IMG/VR virus record: IMGVR_UViG_3300024520_000470
Coordinates: 1-24,969 of that record
Source of the DNA: a virus
DNA length: 24,969 nucleotides
Reading direction: 5' to 3' (one strand)
Shown here: positions 160-16,109 of the stretch, piece by piece
How positions within the stretch are numbered: position 1 is the first letter of the stretch
How the letters are laid out: each line of letters begins with the position of its first letter
The notes under the pieces: generated by a model
The model's input: the letters and a program-made list of their open reading frames with translations, nothing else
Told to the model about the DNA's origin: nothing
Database searches by the model: none
Translations under genes and position numbers: made by a program

Positions 160-1467
160 TCAACCCTTGTCATCATCTTCGTACTCGTGGATGTAGCGAA
201 GTACCGCTTCCGAGAACCCGTCAATGTGGACCCACTTTCCTCGGTACCCGACGCCATTTCTATTTGACGCCACGTTTATGAGATAGGCCTTATCCGCCGA
301 AGGCGTCGCACCACCAGTCTGGCTCTGCTCATCGGTGATCACAATCAGGCGGTCGCACCTATGTCGGTTCACATGGTGTATCGCCCCACGTAGGTCAGTC
401 CAACCATGCCGCTGACTGTTGATAATTGCTTCCACACCAGCCATGCCTTTACGCGGCGGAACTTCAACCGCCCCATACGAAAATGTCCACAGCCGCACAT
501 CCCCCGGGATAATGGCCCCAAGGGTTGCCGCTGCGTCCATGCGAGTAAGGTCTGAACGGCTAGAAAGCGGATAGTTCATAGACCCGCTAACATCTATCAG
601 CACGTGAGTCTTACCAACGAGTGGCGTAAGCTCATTGATGCAGTCACACAGTGCTTGGTCAATGTACGGCTCATAGTGCGGGACAGCTCGGGCGGCAGCG
701 GTGTACCTGAACGGCAGAACCCTTCGGGCTCCCTTCCGTGCAAGAATGGCAAAGCGTACCAGTTCCTCGTCCACGCCCGCCTTGTCCATGTTCCGCAGAT
801 TACGGAGCAAAGCCATGTACCCAAGCTTCTCTTCCATGAGCAGCCGGGTGAAGACTTCCTTCTTGTCCTCACCAGCCGATAGCGCCACTTCCCAGGTGTC
901 CGGCGCTTTAAGCTCACCTTCTGCCAGTTTCTGCCAGACTTCCCCCTGTTCCCCATTCTTCGGGCGGGGGTGGCACATAAACATAACGTCACGCAGCTTA
1001 ACGGCCCCGTCACGGTTATATTTGGCCAGTGCGTAGGCATCAAACTGGTTAAAGGCCTTGGCCAGCCCCTTTTTAAGTTGAGCGGCTATGGGGCATCTAC
1101 CGTCGGCCCAGTACAGAGCTAACAGCTCAGTCATTTCATCCGGTCGTTGGACAATTTGGCCGATGTATTCTGCGACGCTGAAGTTGGTCATCTGCTTATT
1201 CAAAGCACCCAGAATAAGTAGAAGCGGAACATGCCGCAGATTCATATCAATGCGGGCTTCCAAGGCTAGATTCATAATGTTCTGCCCCGGCACATGCTCA
1301 CATAGCTGAGATATTCTCTCGGCTATTGACTCGCCATCCTCGTAGAATTCCTTTTCCCACAGTAGGCAGGACAGGACAGACCGACGCAGTTGTTCTTGAG
1401 GGGAAAGACCATGAACGGCTTTTCCCCCCTCTGCGGTATAAGATTTTTCTTTAACATTTTTTCGCAT
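160..1467 (-). CDS. rsr: TROVE domain protein, Ro60/Rsr orthologue (435 aa)
   Basis: Ro60 proteins are ring-shaped RNA binders that hold Y RNAs and misfolded RNAs and can pass them to exonucleases. The N-terminal ~280 residues are an all-helical TROVE ring; the C-terminal part is a von Willebrand A domain with an intact MIDAS: DVSGSM at 292-297, T357-D358 and D379. The open frame extends back to 1584, but that extension (SGVRVPPSR, GVAQLGRAH) is a readthrough of tRNA-like sequence. The ATG at 1467 has a GAGGTG Shine-Dalgarno a few bases upstream and is the better start. The Y RNA-like element at 1486-1621 lies immediately upstream on the same strand, as rsr and Y RNA genes commonly do. Function in the phage is inferred; the family call is firm. 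Confidence 0.93.
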   Translation of the reverse strand: MRKNVKEKSYTAEGGKAVHGLSPQEQLRRSVLSCLLWEKEFYEDGESIAERISQLCEHVPGQNIMNLALEARIDMNLRHVPLLLILGALNKQMTNFSVAEYIGQIVQRPDEMTELLALYWADGRCPIAAQLKKGLAKAFNQFDAYALAKYNRDGAVKLRDVMFMCHPRPKNGEQGEVWQKLAEGELKAPDTWEVALSAGEDKKEVFTRLLMEEKLGYMALLRNLRNMDKAGVDEELVRFAILARKGARRVLPFRYTAAARAVPHYEPYIDQALCDCINELTPLVGKTHVLIDVSGSMNYPLSSRSDLTRMDAAATLGAIIPGDVRLWTFSYGAVEVPPRKGMAGVEAIINSQRHGWTDLRGAIHHVNRHRCDRLIVITDEQSQTGGATPSADKAYLINVASNRNGVGYRGKWVHIDGFSEAVLRYIHEYEDDDKG

Positions 1468-1485: not shown

Positions 1486-1621
1486 AGTGGGGAACAGTCG
1501 AGAACAGATAACATAATGCGCTCTACCCAACTGAGCTACCCCCCGGATTGCCCGGGAGGGAGGGACTCGAACCCCCGACCTCATCCTCCAAAGGGAAGTA
1601 ACTGTTTTCTACACCACCACT
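1486..1621 (-). ncRNA. YrlA-type Y RNA with circularly permuted tRNA-like module
   Basis: Read 5' to 3' on the minus strand: a T arm (stem 1576-1572/1564-1560, loop TTCGAGT 1571-1565), an acceptor-like stem (CCTCCCGG 1559-1552 with CCGGGGGG 1546-1539) closed by the loop GCAAT, so there is no free CCA end, then TA, a D arm (GCTC 1536-1533, loop AGTTGGGTA, GAGC 1523-1520). The anticodon-stem position is made from GGATG (1586-1582) and CATT (1518-1515). Further out GAAAACAG (1609-1602) pairs with CTGTTCTC (1507-1500) in 7 of 8 positions, and AGTGG (1621-1617) with CCACT (1490-1486). Thus the RNA ends sit where a tRNA anticodon arm would be. This is the arrangement described for bacterial YrlA RNAs that bind Ro60 and mimic tRNA. 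Exact 5' and 3' ends are inferred; no U-run terminator follows, so processing from a longer transcript is likely. Confidence 0.8.
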
Positions 1622-1691
1622 AAATCAGGTGCTTGGGAACAATAGGTAACGGTATAGTTTCTACCAAAGAAGTAACCGTTTCCTTCACCAC
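1595..1691 (-). repeat. Pair of 23-nt direct repeats in the Y RNA region
   Basis: Copies at 1691-1669 and 1617-1595 (both read on the minus strand, 74 nt apart) match at 20 of 23 positions: GTGGTG, AG, AAAC, GTTACTTC are common. Two of the three differences (G/A at two sites) are transitions. In both copies the AAAC part forms the 5' strand of a closing helix and GTTACTTC the start of an internal loop, which fits a conserved protein-binding (Ro60) site duplicated between two RNAs. Confidence 0.7.
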
Positions 1692-1692
1692 A
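1645..1692 (-). ncRNA. Candidate second, shorter Y RNA-like hairpin
   Basis: AACGGT (1680-1675) pairs perfectly with ACCGTT (1653-1648). Inside, TAC faces ACTAT as an internal loop, and TTCT (1671-1668) pairs with AGAA (1662-1659) around the loop TTGGT. The 5' side belongs to a 23-nt repeat shared 20/23 with the leader of the neighbouring tRNA-like Y RNA, including the TTACTTC that follows the helix in both. It lacks T and D arms. Bacteria with Ro60 often carry a second Y RNA without the tRNA-like domain, so a Y RNA pair is a reasonable reading. It could also be only a leader structure or a decayed duplicate. Confidence 0.45.
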
Positions 1693-1725
1693 AGCAACAC
1701 ACAAGCTAGTGCAATATGCACAAAG

Positions 1726-6094: not shown

Positions 6095-6482
6095 GTCTGT
6101 TACTGTCCTCTCTTGTGGGTCCAGGTACCAACTGGTTCTTATGCCGCGCTATTTCCTTGTCCATTTTAACCTGTAAGACGTGCGCCTCAACGAGAAGCAG
6201 GTAGCGCCGTAGATCCTGTATATCGTCTAGCAGCCCTTCGGGCCTTTTATCCTGGTCCAAGGCTGTAAAGATATTGAAACCAGCTTTGTTTTCTACCTGC
6301 TCTTCAATACGGTCCCACTTGCGGGCGAGCATCATATAGGCCCCGACGCCCCCGCGCTTCTTCCACGAGGAAGCGTATTCTAGGTCCTTGGTAGTGGTTA
6401 TGTCAGCGTCGGCAAACTGTATTTCAGGTATGCGCTGATGATAATTAAACTTTGGGTCGTCTATGTTGTTTGTCAGCGGCAT
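6081..6482 (-). CDS. DUF1599/Nmad1-type protein (133 aa)
   Basis: From MPLTNNIDD the protein holds EYASSWKKRGGVGAYMMLA (36-53), RKWDRIEEQV (54-63), then LLDDIQDLRRYLLLVEA (84-100). The order Y/F-x-SSWKKRGG, K-x-DR, LxDxxxDLRxY is that of the all-helical domain called DUF1599 or 'nucleotide modification associated domain 1', common in phages and predicted to act in nucleotide metabolism. The ATG at 6482 has AAAGGAG eight bases upstream; the longer frame to 6566 only overlaps the TS gene. It follows the thymidylate-synthase gene (38-nt overlap), which suits a role in nucleotide supply. The precise reaction is unknown. Confidence 0.7.
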   Translation of the reverse strand: MPLTNNIDDPKFNYHQRIPEIQFADADITTTKDLEYASSWKKRGGVGAYMMLARKWDRIEEQVENKAGFNIFTALDQDKRPEGLLDDIQDLRRYLLLVEAHVLQVKMDKEIARHKNQLVPGPTREDSNRHADA

Positions 6483-7464
6483 TCTTAGCTCTCCTTTTGA
6501 TCCATTCTTCACAAGCAAGTCTCCAGTCGGTAGCGCGTATATCTGCGGCCATGCTGAGCGCACCACCCAAGTTTTTTTCTTTAACCTGATTCCAGGCTAG
6601 CCTCATAGGTGTTGCTACTTCAAAGAAAAAAGGGTTGTCTGCCGACCACCCCACTGAACCCGTCATCCACTCTAACAGATCTCGGTACCATGATTCAGGG
6701 TTATGCACCATCGGGTAGGGCTTGCACTGACCTATATCATACGGGTTACGGGGAGCAGGCTGGGGAGTGCCCACAGTGGCCAAAATAGCCGTGTAGGCGT
6801 GGTAGTCGTTACTTATTTGGGTGTACGTACCCAACGGCACCCCGACCATACTGGCAACGTACTCATGCAGCATCGACATGTGCACCGCGTTCGCCCCATA
6901 GGCCCCCCATATGATGTCATTGCTTCGGCAGCACACCGTCATGTCAAGCTCTATGCGCTGCTCATGGCGCATATCTCTATGCCGTATACGGAAGAATATA
7001 GTGGTGTTGCAGGGAGTATCTATTTTGTTGGCAAGAAGGTCACTGTTGCCGTCCCACATTGCCAGAACACAGCGGCGGGAGTTTGGGTCTCTTTTTAGAA
7101 TACCTATAATCACATCTATCTGATCATAGTCAAACCAGTGACGCCATCTGTGGCCATAGGCTCCCCAGAACTTTTTACCATCATCACTAAATTGGCCGAA
7201 CTTACTGTTATATCGTTCTATCCACTTTACATCATTCCGGCCCGCCAGCATCCACAGACCTTCCATAAAGTGGAAGAATGGGTTGGCATTGCGCTTTTCA
7301 TCAAACAATACCCGCTGGTCGGAGTGAAGGTAGACTGTGGAAACTGGGTCTGGATAGGTAAGACATTCGCCCGCCCTGCTCGGTCTGACGTCACCAGATT
7401 CTAATAACATCCTGAGACCCACGGTGTAGGCCTCATTGACGTTAAGTGCGTGTAGAGTCCTCAT
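6445..7464 (-). CDS. Thymidylate synthase homologue (TS or dUMP hydroxymethylase, 339 aa)
   Basis: The TS fold is plain: NANPFFHFMEGLWMLAGRND (59-78), the Arg pair SRR (130-131), catalytic Cys152 in DTPCNTTIFF, CCRSND (178-183), GANAVHMS with Asn192, and NDYHAY (H222, Y224). Asn192 aligns with the Asn that selects dUMP over dCMP, so the substrate is probably dUMP. The product may be dTMP or, with water as final acceptor, hydroxymethyl-dUMP; the sequence alone does not decide. Lying next to modification genes favours the second as a hypothesis. The ATG at 7464 with GGAAG upstream is preferred to a TTG at 7536. The start overlaps the glycosyltransferase gene by 23 nt. Confidence 0.88.
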   Translation of the reverse strand: MRTLHALNVNEAYTVGLRMLLESGDVRPSRAGECLTYPDPVSTVYLHSDQRVLFDEKRNANPFFHFMEGLWMLAGRNDVKWIERYNSKFGQFSDDGKKFWGAYGHRWRHWFDYDQIDVIIGILKRDPNSRRCVLAMWDGNSDLLANKIDTPCNTTIFFRIRHRDMRHEQRIELDMTVCCRSNDIIWGAYGANAVHMSMLHEYVASMVGVPLGTYTQISNDYHAYTAILATVGTPQPAPRNPYDIGQCKPYPMVHNPESWYRDLLEWMTGSVGWSADNPFFFEVATPMRLAWNQVKEKNLGGALSMAADIRATDWRLACEEWIKRRAKNAADKQHRRPKV

Positions 7465-8224
7465 AAGCTTTCTTCCATGAAATACGAACGTCGGTGCGAA
7501 TTCCTCCGCCCCACGAACTTTTGGTTTCTTTGGCAACTACTTTTACAAAACCGGGGTGTAGATTAGCAAGTTCATAACTGCACCGGGCCATCATTTCTTC
7601 ATCACGATAGGCAGCACATCCCCCCTCTTTTTGACTTCCGGGCTGGTTGTGGGCGTAATTGAACATGATTAGATTAGGGTGGCCAGCTCTTAGAAGTTGC
7701 AGGGTCATGTCAAAGTCTTGCTTAGTGTCAATACGATCAAAGCGGGCGCCGATCTTTGTTACTACCTCGACATCGTAGGCAAGAACCCGCATCATGCGGC
7801 CTACTTCTTGCGTGTACTCAGAGACCCGGTTATTTCCTTCTCTGGCGCTTATCCCCACATGTGTCCAGTCATTAAGGTGCCCTTCTACTTCGGCAATCAT
7901 ATTTTCAAGACCTTCAGCGCCTAATGGGAGCAACCTTACTTCCATTGGCTGCCCTGATCTACCACTAAAGGTTAGATCATCATCCATAAGGATGATCTTA
8001 TCCGCCGGGGTGTTATAGAGAAGATGTTGTCGAGTAGGAGATAGCATAGTTATATCAGCCGGTAGAATTCTGATATTAGCGTCTGGATGGGCTTTATAAT
8101 ATGCCTCTGCTTCCTTTTCTTGCACCACAAGCCAGACATTAGGTGCGTATCTAGTTTCCATTAGAGCTTTTAGGGTTGGTTGAGATCCTGCTCTTCCCGA
8201 GCTATGTATGTAGATGTTTAGCAT
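7442..8224 (-). CDS. TET-associated-type glycosyltransferase (TAGT-like, 260 aa)
   Basis: N-terminal MLNIYIHSSGRAGSQPTL, then VWLVVQEKEAEAYY, LSPTRQHLLYN (61-71) and the DxD-type metal/nucleotide-sugar site IILMDDDLTF (77-86, DDD at 81-83). This layout (S-x-GRA at the start, R-x-x-L-L-Y ahead of a MDDD strand) is that of the TAGT family, a GT-A glycosyltransferase predicted to add sugars to modified DNA bases in phages. The ATG at 8224 has GGGAG eight bases upstream and lies 2 nt after the radical SAM stop; a GTG at 8239 is less likely. Context with the radical SAM and TS genes supports a base-modification role. The sugar and acceptor are unknown. Confidence 0.8.
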   Translation of the reverse strand: MLNIYIHSSGRAGSQPTLKALMETRYAPNVWLVVQEKEAEAYYKAHPDANIRILPADITMLSPTRQHLLYNTPADKIILMDDDLTFSGRSGQPMEVRLLPLGAEGLENMIAEVEGHLNDWTHVGISAREGNNRVSEYTQEVGRMMRVLAYDVEVVTKIGARFDRIDTKQDFDMTLQLLRAGHPNLIMFNYAHNQPGSQKEGGCAAYRDEEMMARCSYELANLHPGFVKVVAKETKSSWGGGIRTDVRISWKKAYEDSTRT

Positions 8225-8226
8225 TT

Positions 8227-9186
8227 TTATTTCTCCCACGGTCTAAGGACCGGCTTTGTCATTGGTTCTCCACTGCTCGCCCAGTCAACTGTTTTTCGGT
8301 CATCAGCGGTTGGTACAGGGAGGTCCTGTTTTCCGACCTTATCAGGCAGGATACCAACCCTGAAACTTGTGTTGTCACAACCTTTACAGGGGCCAAAATT
8401 CCGGTCTCTATGGTAAAGGTGTTTTCGGGCGGCATCAAACGCGTCATTATTCCAGATCTCCTCTAGGCTGCCATCGTCGATATTTCCGGCCTTGTAGATT
8501 CCCCGCCAATCGTTGCAGCACAGCATCACTTGTCCGTCGTAACGTATGGCCATTTCCCGGAAGGGACGAGCGCAACGTTTCGCAAGCGGCTCCACCAAAG
8601 TAGGAAGTCCTGCGCCACAATGGTTATTGCCGATTTTAGTCCCCACCCTCTGACCTGTAAGAACTGCCTCTTCCATATCTTCCATAATGAAGATCCTCTG
8701 GCGCGACGCCTTAACTTTCGTATAAGGGCTTTCCTTTTTACTTGCATTGCTGTAGTCCCAGATTTCGACCGCATTGTACCCCCTGACCTGTTCTATCGCT
8801 TTCGCTGAATCTTTATAAGCGTCAAGAGCCAGTATATTGAGTCCGGCGTCGAATAGTCGACTAATATTGGCGTGGACGCCAGGAGGCTTAAGAAGCGGTG
8901 TTGCATTGCTCGTCACCATTAAGTGAGTTTTAGGAAGATTGCGCCTGAAGATATCGATAATAGCGACGCTGTGGGGGTTCATCAAAGGCTCCCCGCGCAA
9001 AGCAAACTCTATCTTGCTGTTCCACCCCGAGTCACTTATTTCCCCCGCTATATGGACCGCAGTTTCAAGGTCCATGAATTTATAATCACCGCGGGCCTCA
9101 CGGATACCCTGAATACCACACATCCCACACCGGAAATTGCAGCCCTCGGTCATTTCTAGCTTTATCGTATTCGGGGCATCCTGCAT
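8227..9186 (-). CDS. Radical SAM/SPASM-domain enzyme (319 aa)
   Basis: The radical SAM cluster site is C16-NFRC20-GMC23 (CxxxCxxC), followed by LRGEP (63-67), the GGEP-like SAM-binding motif. The C-terminal half carries further Cys residues at 190, 205, 223, 224, 267 and 270 (AKRCARPF, VMLCCNDW, GPCKGC), the pattern of a SPASM domain with auxiliary Fe-S clusters. Such enzymes make carbon radicals to rearrange or link atoms in a bound substrate. Radical SAM proteins occur in phage clusters for thymidine hypermodification, and this gene lies between the HMUDK-type and glycosyltransferase genes. Peptide or tRNA substrates cannot be excluded. The ATG overlaps the stop of the small membrane peptide (TAATG). 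Confidence 0.88.
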   Translation of the reverse strand: MQDAPNTIKLEMTEGCNFRCGMCGIQGIREARGDYKFMDLETAVHIAGEISDSGWNSKIEFALRGEPLMNPHSVAIIDIFRRNLPKTHLMVTSNATPLLKPPGVHANISRLFDAGLNILALDAYKDSAKAIEQVRGYNAVEIWDYSNASKKESPYTKVKASRQRIFIMEDMEEAVLTGQRVGTKIGNNHCGAGLPTLVEPLAKRCARPFREMAIRYDGQVMLCCNDWRGIYKAGNIDDGSLEEIWNNDAFDAARKHLYHRDRNFGPCKGCDNTSFRVGILPDKVGKQDLPVPTADDRKTVDWASSGEPMTKPVLRPWEK

Positions 9187-9296
9187 TATGTTAACAACCC
9201 CATCAGCATCTTATTAATGACCGCGACCAAACCGTTTCCTAGTGCCACTCCGGCCGCAATTATAATCACCGCCGTAAACACCTCATGACTTTTCAT
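9186..9296 (-). CDS. Small single-pass membrane peptide (36 aa)
   Basis: Reads MKSHEVFTAVIIIAAGVALG, then NGLVAVINKMLMGLLT: a short polar head and one continuous hydrophobic segment of about 25 residues. The ATG at 9296 lies inside the end of the upstream gene, with AAGGAG 11 bases before it. The stop overlaps the radical SAM start (TAATG), so it is part of the operon. Function unknown; it could be a holin-like or inhibitory micro-protein, or an anchor. The longer frame to 9377 lacks a ribosome site. Confidence 0.55.
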   Translation of the reverse strand: MKSHEVFTAVIIIAAGVALGNGLVAVINKMLMGLLT

Positions 9297-10146
9297 GTCT
9301 GTACCTGCTCCTTGGTCTACCTTGGCCGTTTTTGACCCGTTCATATTTATCGAACTCACACAACTGAAACTGAACATCGTGTAGTGCTAAGTCGCCCAAT
9401 CTTCCTGGCCAGTGAGCTACCCTCGCCTTATACAGCTCTAGCATCTCTTCCATATAGATTCGCTCGGGCCGCTTTTGGTCAAAAGGCCTGACCATTATTC
9501 TGTTTAAGCCCCGACGTGCTCCAGGACCAACTGGGCACCATGTATTCAAGTCTTTTATCTTTGGCCAGATTGCACAATGAATAGCATCCTGCATCACTTC
9601 CTTAGCCATAAACCCCGAACCGCCAAAACCTTGGAGCACCCGCATGTGCTTGATTATAGCCTCCCAGGACTCAGTATTTAACCCAACTTCAACAAGTGTT
9701 GAACAAGCATCCCAGAAGGGCTTCAGGAACATATCCACTACGACTTCCTGCTTAGGTGCCGAAATACCTTGATTAGTGATGACATACGCCCCTGTGAAGA
9801 CCTTTTTCTTATGGGCCATCATCATAGCTGCCACAGCCTTAATCCGGTTTCTGGTCTCTAGATCAAAGTCATACTGGTAGCCAATTGCTTCGGCAAACTC
9901 CATTGTCCCAAAGTACCGGAACAGGGCGCAGTTAAAAAGCTGAACATGGGCGGGCTGGCCGAGGTTCTGGTTGGTCCAGTTATCCCGCATCCAGCGTGTA
10001 GTGCGATCGTCCTCCCTATGGACGTTGGTGAATTTATATTCCTGGAGTATCTTATCATCGGTCCAGGGCCACGGCCTTCCCGCTTCCTTATTTAGACGTG
10101 TACTTTCCCGCTTAACCATAAAGGTATAGAAATCTTCAGTCCTCAT
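9283..10146 (-). CDS. HMUDK-helical/aGPT-PPlase-type base-hypermodification protein (287 aa)
   Basis: The N-terminus has RESTRLNKEAG, PWPWTDDKILQEYKFTNVH (25-43) and REDDRTTRW (44-52). This F-T-N-V-x-RE-x-D signature after PWT-x-D marks the helical domain found in 5-hydroxymethyl-dU DNA kinases and in alpha-glutamyl/putrescinyl-thymine pyrophosphorylase-like proteins. Those act after replication on 5-hmdU in phage DNA, phosphorylating it or replacing its pyrophosphate with an amine or amino acid. No P-loop kinase domain is visible, so this is the stand-alone helical type. The ATG at 10146 is chosen over 10185 because the longer form reads back through the preceding zinc-binding gene. Exact chemistry is inferred. 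Confidence 0.72.
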   Translation of the reverse strand: MRTEDFYTFMVKRESTRLNKEAGRPWPWTDDKILQEYKFTNVHREDDRTTRWMRDNWTNQNLGQPAHVQLFNCALFRYFGTMEFAEAIGYQYDFDLETRNRIKAVAAMMMAHKKKVFTGAYVITNQGISAPKQEVVVDMFLKPFWDACSTLVEVGLNTESWEAIIKHMRVLQGFGGSGFMAKEVMQDAIHCAIWPKIKDLNTWCPVGPGARRGLNRIMVRPFDQKRPERIYMEEMLELYKARVAHWPGRLGDLALHDVQFQLCEFDKYERVKNGQGRPRSRYRHEKS

Positions 10147-10306
10147 CCTCAACAACCATCCCTTCCGGCAGCGGTTTAGTTTCAATACAGTTTTTACCTA
10201 TGCAGAGAAGCCAGTATCTCTCCATATCCCCATCTATGATCCAGCCAAACGAACCGCACTTCAGACAGGGCTCACTCTTTACGACATCACAAAGACTAAT
10301 CTTCAT
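10136..10306 (-). CDS. Small Cys-rich zinc-binding protein (56 aa)
   Basis: The ATG at 10306 opens MKISLCDVVKSEPCLKCGSFGW; Cys at 6, 14, 17, 35 and 40 (PCLKCG and LLCIGKNC) suggest a zinc ribbon. It ends PEGMVVEDED. GGGTAG precedes the ATG by three bases. It overlaps the upstream Tad2-like gene by 11 nt and the downstream modification gene by 11 nt, which is the spacing habit of this operon. Function unknown. Confidence 0.65.
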   Translation of the reverse strand: MKISLCDVVKSEPCLKCGSFGWIIDGDMERYWLLCIGKNCIETKPLPEGMVVEDED

Positions 10307-16039: not shown

Positions 16040-16109
16040 TGGTGGGCAACGAGGGACTCGAACCCTCCGCTTCGGGGTTGAAACCCCTAGCTCTCCCACG
16101 AGATTACCC
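16040..16109 (-). tRNA. Compact tRNA or tRNA-like gene, anticodon TTC (Glu) or TCA (UGA)
   Basis: Acceptor GGGTAAT (16109-16103) pairs with GTTGCCC, followed by an encoded ACCA (16043-16040). The T arm is regular: GAGGG, TTCGAGT, CCCTC. The anticodon region is GGGG-TTTCAA-CCCC; with a five-base variable loop the 7-base loop would be GTTTCAA and the anticodon TTC (Glu), while loop TTTCAAC would give TCA, reading UGA. The D arm is reduced to CTC-GTGGGA-GAG with almost no linker, far smaller than usual. It overlaps the TAA of the upstream gene by 6 nt. The encoded CCA and sound T and acceptor arms argue that it is processed; charging is uncertain. Confidence 0.62.

Follow-up and report, generated by a model that had tools for sequence, protein, structure and literature searches.

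The stretch of DNA analysed here (the window, 24,969 nucleotides) is part of an uncultured phage. On its minus strand it carries a Ro60-Y RNA cassette, in which the phage's own Ro60 gene has two Y RNAs directly ahead of it. Read along that strand, unit 1 (1630-1696) comes before unit 2 (1486-1621) and the Ro60 gene follows in the same orientation.

1709-1721, minus strand: palindrome GTGCATATTGCAC, upstream of the first Y RNA (unit 1)
1630-1696, minus strand: unit 1, a short predicted Y RNA without a tRNA module, with a 16-nt head and both Ro60-type arms
1691-1669 and 1652-1635, minus strand: 5' and 3' arms of unit 1, with the outer stem TGCTT/AAGCA
1486-1621, minus strand: unit 2, a predicted Y RNA with a circularly permuted tRNA-like module (matched at 1485-1622 by the covariance model R1, see below, and by RF02553 at 39.3 bits)
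160-1467, minus strand: Ro60 (TROVE/RsR) protein of 435 aa with the vWA MIDAS motif DVSGSM (PF05731, E 4e-19)

The Ro60 start codon is at 1467-1465, on the same strand as unit 2 and 18 nt beyond its end. An earlier note on this DNA had placed a YrlA-type Y RNA 19 nt before a TROVE/Ro60 start; the adjacency stands, although direct reading gives the shorter distance, and both the second Y RNA (1630-1696) and the anticodon-like arm of unit 2 had been overlooked. The gene adjoining unit 2 is a phage Ro60, as that note proposed, with Pfam TROVE (69.5 bits against a cut-off of 23), PHROG 850 and the predicted fold in agreement. An AlphaFold model (ma5a3dd90462f, mean pLDDT 86.7) gave as its top Foldseek matches 9kop and 9l5y, the Ro60 of Thermus phage phiLo, and 2nvo, the Rsr of D. 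radiodurans; Xenopus Ro (1yvp) was also matched. The phiLo protein has the family and fold in common with that of the window but is distant (28% identity), and family and fold are likewise common to the TROVE proteins of jumbo and crAss-like phages. The MIDAS residues DxSxS (D292, S294 and S296) were invariant in 24 relatives.

The palindrome at 1709-1721 would occupy a promoter-operator position, which suggests a regulated promoter for the array. A motif of this kind, [TG]TGCA-n1-5-TGCA[AC], was found at most 90 nt upstream of the first unit in 14 viral arrays and has an overall frequency of 0.04 per kb. A promoter scan of the region of the array gave no strong match to sigma-70.

Anatomy of unit 2 and the evidence for its fold

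When 1486-1621 was read directly on the minus strand, from 5' to 3', the parts came in the following order.

1621-1618 with 1489-1486, minus strand: outer stem (direct reading)
1595-1617, minus strand: 5' Ro60-type arm, GTGGTGTAGAAAACAGTTACTTC (arm scan, motif GTGGYGWAG-NNNN-CRG-NTACTTC)
1582-1598, minus strand: anticodon-like arm CUUCC CUUUGGA GGAUG, tRNA positions 27-43, with 4 of 5 pairs and UUG at loop positions 34-36
1560-1576, minus strand: T arm GGGGG-TTCGAGT-CCCTC (RF02553 match and alignment of relatives)
1539-1559, minus strand: loop-closed acceptor-like stem CCTCCCG-GGCAATC-CGGGGGG, without a free CCA end (alignment of relatives); 3' strand 1559-1553, loop 1552-1546 (GGCAATC), 5' strand 1545-1539
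1520-1536, minus strand: D arm GCTC-AGTTGGGTA-GAGC (RF02553 match and alignment of relatives)
1490-1507, minus strand: 3' Ro60-type arm, CTGTTCTCGACTGTTCCC (arm scan and R1 match)

Unit 2 is accordingly described as a predicted Y RNA in which a Ro60-type basal stem bears a complete permuted tRNA, rotated between positions 26 and 27, with the order anticodon arm, T arm, loop-closed acceptor stem and D arm. The last three of these were seen in the order given by the earlier note. Its acceptor stem of 8 bp with a GCAAT loop is valid once an extra C-G pair is counted, the stem otherwise being 7 bp, and its limits of 1486-1621, where it had the outer ends pairing, coincide exactly with the outer stem.

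Relatives were gathered from viral contigs, genomes and phage records, and a two-part arm motif was found to be repeated upstream of their Ro60 genes, consisting of the 5' arm given above and a 3' arm CYG-N'N'N'N'-CGNYTGTTCCC. At a score of at least 22, the 1.6 Mb of Ro60 loci scanned yielded 478 units on the strand of the Ro60 gene and a single one on the other strand. At least one unit was present in 87/95 viral and 77/79 genomic loci, the largest number per locus being seven, in Caulobacter phages. The inserts between the arms were of three kinds: short hairpins, pieces of a tRNA, and tRNA-like modules of ~80 nt. No units were detectable in the two crAss-like loci examined (L029 and L031).

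Some loci departed from the common layout. Units were located downstream of Ro60, instead of or besides upstream, in L013, L019, L028 and L086. A unit about 380 nt upstream of Ro60 in L011 has a module that, read by eye, is apparently rotated at another point, with the acceptor strand and its CCA first, then the D arm, the anticodon arm (UAC) and the T arm. A two-piece (permuted) tmRNA lies near Ro60 and its Y RNA array in Brevundimonas phage Kikimora (L024:6362-6707, RF04321, 57.7 bits). A link to RNA repair was considered and dropped, RtcB being present in just 6/48 phage records, mostly the larger ones.

In hundreds of Ro60-linked units, sequence and covariation show one and the same basal stem, made up of two helices that surround conserved strands. 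For the four variable bases of the inner helix (NNNN), 84% of the cells were paired with the 3' arm in a set of 282 units; the shuffle control gave 48% (maximum 51.5%). The five bases of the outer helix were paired in 98, 98, 90, 90 and 75% of 220 units, against 41-54% when shuffled. These two tests, and that of the anticodon arm described below, are independent of the pairing that each measures. A covariance model (R1) built from an alignment of 34 units of relatives, with the window left out, matched the window at 1485-1622 on the minus strand with 109.3 bits (E 2.7e-28). This match and the 478 to 1 strand distribution of the arm motif together exclude chance as the origin of unit 2. In the same alignment 94.8% of cells were paired, against 69.9% after shuffling, and both-sided changes occurred in 28 of the 36 base pairs. 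A caveat that must be applied is that the T, acceptor and D stems helped to select the 34 units, which inflates their paired percentages; the compensatory changes in the acceptor stem (double changes in 7/7 pairs) are so many that they stay informative despite this selection. The earlier note would have been refuted by paired strands that did not co-vary in related phages, and it is clear from these data that the basal stem and the permuted tRNA order do covary. The fold of unit 2 rests on this covariation; single-sequence nearest-neighbour folding misses it (z about -1.2). Thermodynamically, other folds had the advantage, of about 17 kcal/mol in the window and of more than 5 kcal/mol in 92/92 relatives tested, and minimum-free-energy folding was dropped as evidence, being uninformative here.

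The anticodon arm, tRNA genes and YrlA

In 92 modules the 5' arm and the T arm are far enough apart to hold a 17-nt hairpin (tRNA positions 27-43), the first bases of which overlap the UUC of the 5' arm. In the viral units, cis pairing averaged 3.69 of 5 (shuffled mean 2.82, maximum 3.19). Trans pairing, of the 39-43 strand with the bases after the D arm, averaged 3.33 (shuffled maximum 2.50). A purely trans anticodon stem in the style of the Rfam consensus was rejected for the modules as a whole, since both pairings exceeded their shuffles and cis was favoured in energy in 72/92. In the window itself the two are equally good, 4/5 each. Pair 31-39 was CG in 37 modules, AT in 23, GC in 7 and TA in 5. 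Modules with at least 4/5 cis pairs, from phage and bacterial relatives, had U33 in 59/62 and a purine at 37 in 60/62, whereas only 15/30 of the remaining modules, those with fewer than 4 cis pairs, had U33.

The modules carry 21 different anticodons, among which NNU was commoner than in real tRNAs (36/54 against 81/224; the p of 6e-5 is optimistic, the sequences being partly related). The body predicted the isotype of the anticodon in only 6/87 modules (4.8 expected), while the same prediction succeeded for 99/192 (52%) and 16/29 real tRNAs. The anticodon is decoupled from the tRNA body, though the bodies may be too diverged for the isotype method. The exceptions to the mismatch were Glu, Pro and Trp-like modules. 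As a general source of the anticodons, whole host tRNAs captured again and again are ruled out by these isotype results (6/87 against 99/192).

Such a module could be mistaken for a permuted gene of a working tRNA, or for the place where two broken tandem tRNA genes meet, a reading that is very improbable. ARAGORN found no tRNA in the window, yet called one once the window module had been un-permuted; among 125 modules it recognised 96 when un-permuted, compared with 11 as they stand natively and 60 once the anticodon arm had been shuffled. NCCA begins 14/125 acceptor loops, which would suit a working tRNA, but the acceptor loop of the window module lacks CCA, stable tetraloops often close the acceptor stem, and the isotypes of anticodon and body disagree. 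Ordinary tandem tRNAs reach similar RF02553 scores; against both forms of this reading, the two Ro60-type arms show covariation and are found again in hundreds of units. The permuted tRNA genes of algae and archaea also have the 3' half before the 5' half, but unit 2 is built into a Ro60-type stem, has its rotation at 26/27 and is without sign of maturation to a tRNA, as far as can be read from sequence alone. Annotators should be warned that such Y RNA elements get reported as tRNAs, as in Xanthomonas phage 10KY502B, where an annotated 'tRNA-Thr' (L023:2831-2898) sits in a permuted Y RNA unit. A separate, probable tRNA gene of divergent type, overlooked by ARAGORN and Rfam, lies at 16041-16109 on the minus strand of the window, with a 7-bp acceptor GGGTAAT/GTTGCCC, an encoded ACCA end, a T arm GAGGG-TTCGAGT-CCCTC and a very short D arm.

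YrlAs are reportedly encoded by phages, according to a 2014 account by Chen et al. The same has been recorded elsewhere (PMC7765460), and circular permutation lets YrlA superpose on tRNA (PMC11472068). Bacterial YrlA binds Ro60 and is a substrate of the tRNA-modifying enzymes TruB and DusA (PMC8394870). YrlA (Rfam RF02553), with a Salmonella member of known structure (PDB 6CU1), is among the closest known systems. In common with unit 2, YrlA has a linked Ro60/Rsr gene on the same strand, a basal stem in which the 5' end pairs with the 3' end, and the permuted tRNA order of T arm, loop-closed acceptor and D arm, and in common with the phage cassette it often has a second Y RNA alongside. However, Rfam at its gathering scores found nothing in the window. 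At relaxed thresholds the top match was YrlA (RF02553; 39.3 bits, E 2.2e-7 for 361 bases, model positions 23-89), so that the covariance check proposed in the earlier note did produce a YrlA match, but one well short of the curated gathering score of 69 bits; the best phage relative tested reached 55.9. A search of 299 Pseudomonadota genomes with RF02553 gave many matches of about 28-45 bits, two of which (42-45 bits) were junctions of ordinary tandem tRNAs, and an RF02553 score alone is therefore not proof.

Differences in structure were also found. The Rfam YrlA consensus has a 7-bp helix (13-19/90-96) and four further pairs, at 23-26, that connect to the tRNA-like core. Unit 2 lacks this second helix (13-19/90-96), its match spanning model positions 23-89 only; phage units mostly do not form it, and in several phage relatives it is unpaired or mostly so. 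Unit 2 further differs in its predicted cis anticodon-type hairpin and in the sequence of its basal stem. Of the YrlA-like loci that pass or approach the cut-off, L220, L222, L223, L225 and L226 have the GGAACUAC-type strand of the second helix, and L222, L225 and L226, read by eye, seem to have an anticodon-like loop too, which makes the hairpin a difference of degree. The idea that it is exclusive to this subtype was withdrawn on the same grounds. The YrlA-type reading of the earlier note is thus upheld by the adjacent Ro60, the basal stem and the permuted order, but must be qualified: unit 2 would work like YrlA, yet is best regarded as a divergent variant that falls outside RF02553 as that family is delimited.

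Possible roles of the cassette

Within the cassette, the likeliest role of unit 2 is probably that of a tether and gate for the phage Ro60. Homology with Y RNA stems elsewhere suggests that the basal stem would bind to the outer face of the ring formed by the phage Ro60, and the tRNA-like head would hang off Ro60, where a host tRNA-binding protein could recognise it. Unit 2 might then bring Ro60 to a nuclease such as PNPase, or control the access of RNA to the Ro60 cavity, and the phage could thereby profit from the way in which damaged or structured RNA is handled. Unit 1, short and without the head, may act as a gate or stabiliser. A tether or gate seems the most conservative reading of unit 2, and it is likely that the Ro60-bound RNA uses its head to dock or decoy a tRNA-binding factor of the host. 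To our knowledge PNPase tethering by a Y RNA is confined to D. radiodurans, and we know of no understood role for Y RNAs in phages. In D. radiodurans a Y RNA tethers Rsr to PNPase (PMC4726728). That complex (RYPER), which likewise has a Ro60 partner RNA with a basal stem, serves as the model for the tether; the cassette described here is phage-encoded and known from its sequence.

A decoy is a rather unlikely alternative, in which a Ro60-bound, CCA-less tRNA mimic would soak up or inhibit a host anticodon nuclease or tRNA-modifying enzyme, different heads answering different enzymes. The retention of a true anticodon-type loop (U33 and purine 37, as above) and the 21 anticodons mismatched to the tRNA body are consistent with it, and Hughes et al. 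(2020) proposed YrlA as a possible competitive inhibitor of an anticodon nuclease (PMC7790460), but Salmonella YrlA was uncleaved by its RecA-dependent nuclease (PMC7790460). The same type of arm occurs on bacterial chromosomes and is therefore no anti-host device in general, and many units are headless. Further support comes from the Xanthomonas phages Olaya and 10KY502B, the Ro60 genes of which are 96.8% identical. When their units were paired by arm similarity, 40, 38 and 41 of the 41 arm bases were identical, against 73, 14 and 93% of the insert columns, so that heads can change faster than arms; the comparison covers few phage pairs and the case for head-swapping rests mainly on this one. 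It is more doubtful still that the tRNAs presented by the phage Ro60, rotated, CCA-less and equipped with working anticodon loops, are decoys that can be exchanged against different anticodon nucleases or tRNA-modifying enzymes of the host, the heads being swapped or re-lettered between close phages while the arms stay fixed.

It is improbable that unit 2 is a cis-acting leader, a structure at the start of the Ro60 mRNA through which Ro60 binding would autoregulate its own translation. The end of unit 2 only 18 nt before the start codon and the position of most arrays ahead of Ro60 would fit, but a locus can have several units, which lie as far as about 1.9 kb upstream or are found downstream of the gene (L013, L019, L028 and L086). 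These positions disfavour a leader, and the RNA is closed off by its basal stem into a unit of its own. Whether unit 2 is a tether, a decoy or a leader can be tested directly because the Ro60-type arms are precisely defined, the anticodon arm is decoupled from the body and phage pairs differing in their heads have been named.

Elsewhere in the window, the minus strand of 6445-10185 holds genes that suggest hypermodified DNA, recognised by domain or profile matches.

9283-10185, minus strand: HMUDK_hel kinase domain
8227-9186, minus strand: radical SAM-SPASM protein
7442-8239, minus strand: beta-glucosyl-HMC-alpha-glucosyltransferase-like glycosyltransferase
6445-7536, minus strand: thymidylate-synthase-like protein
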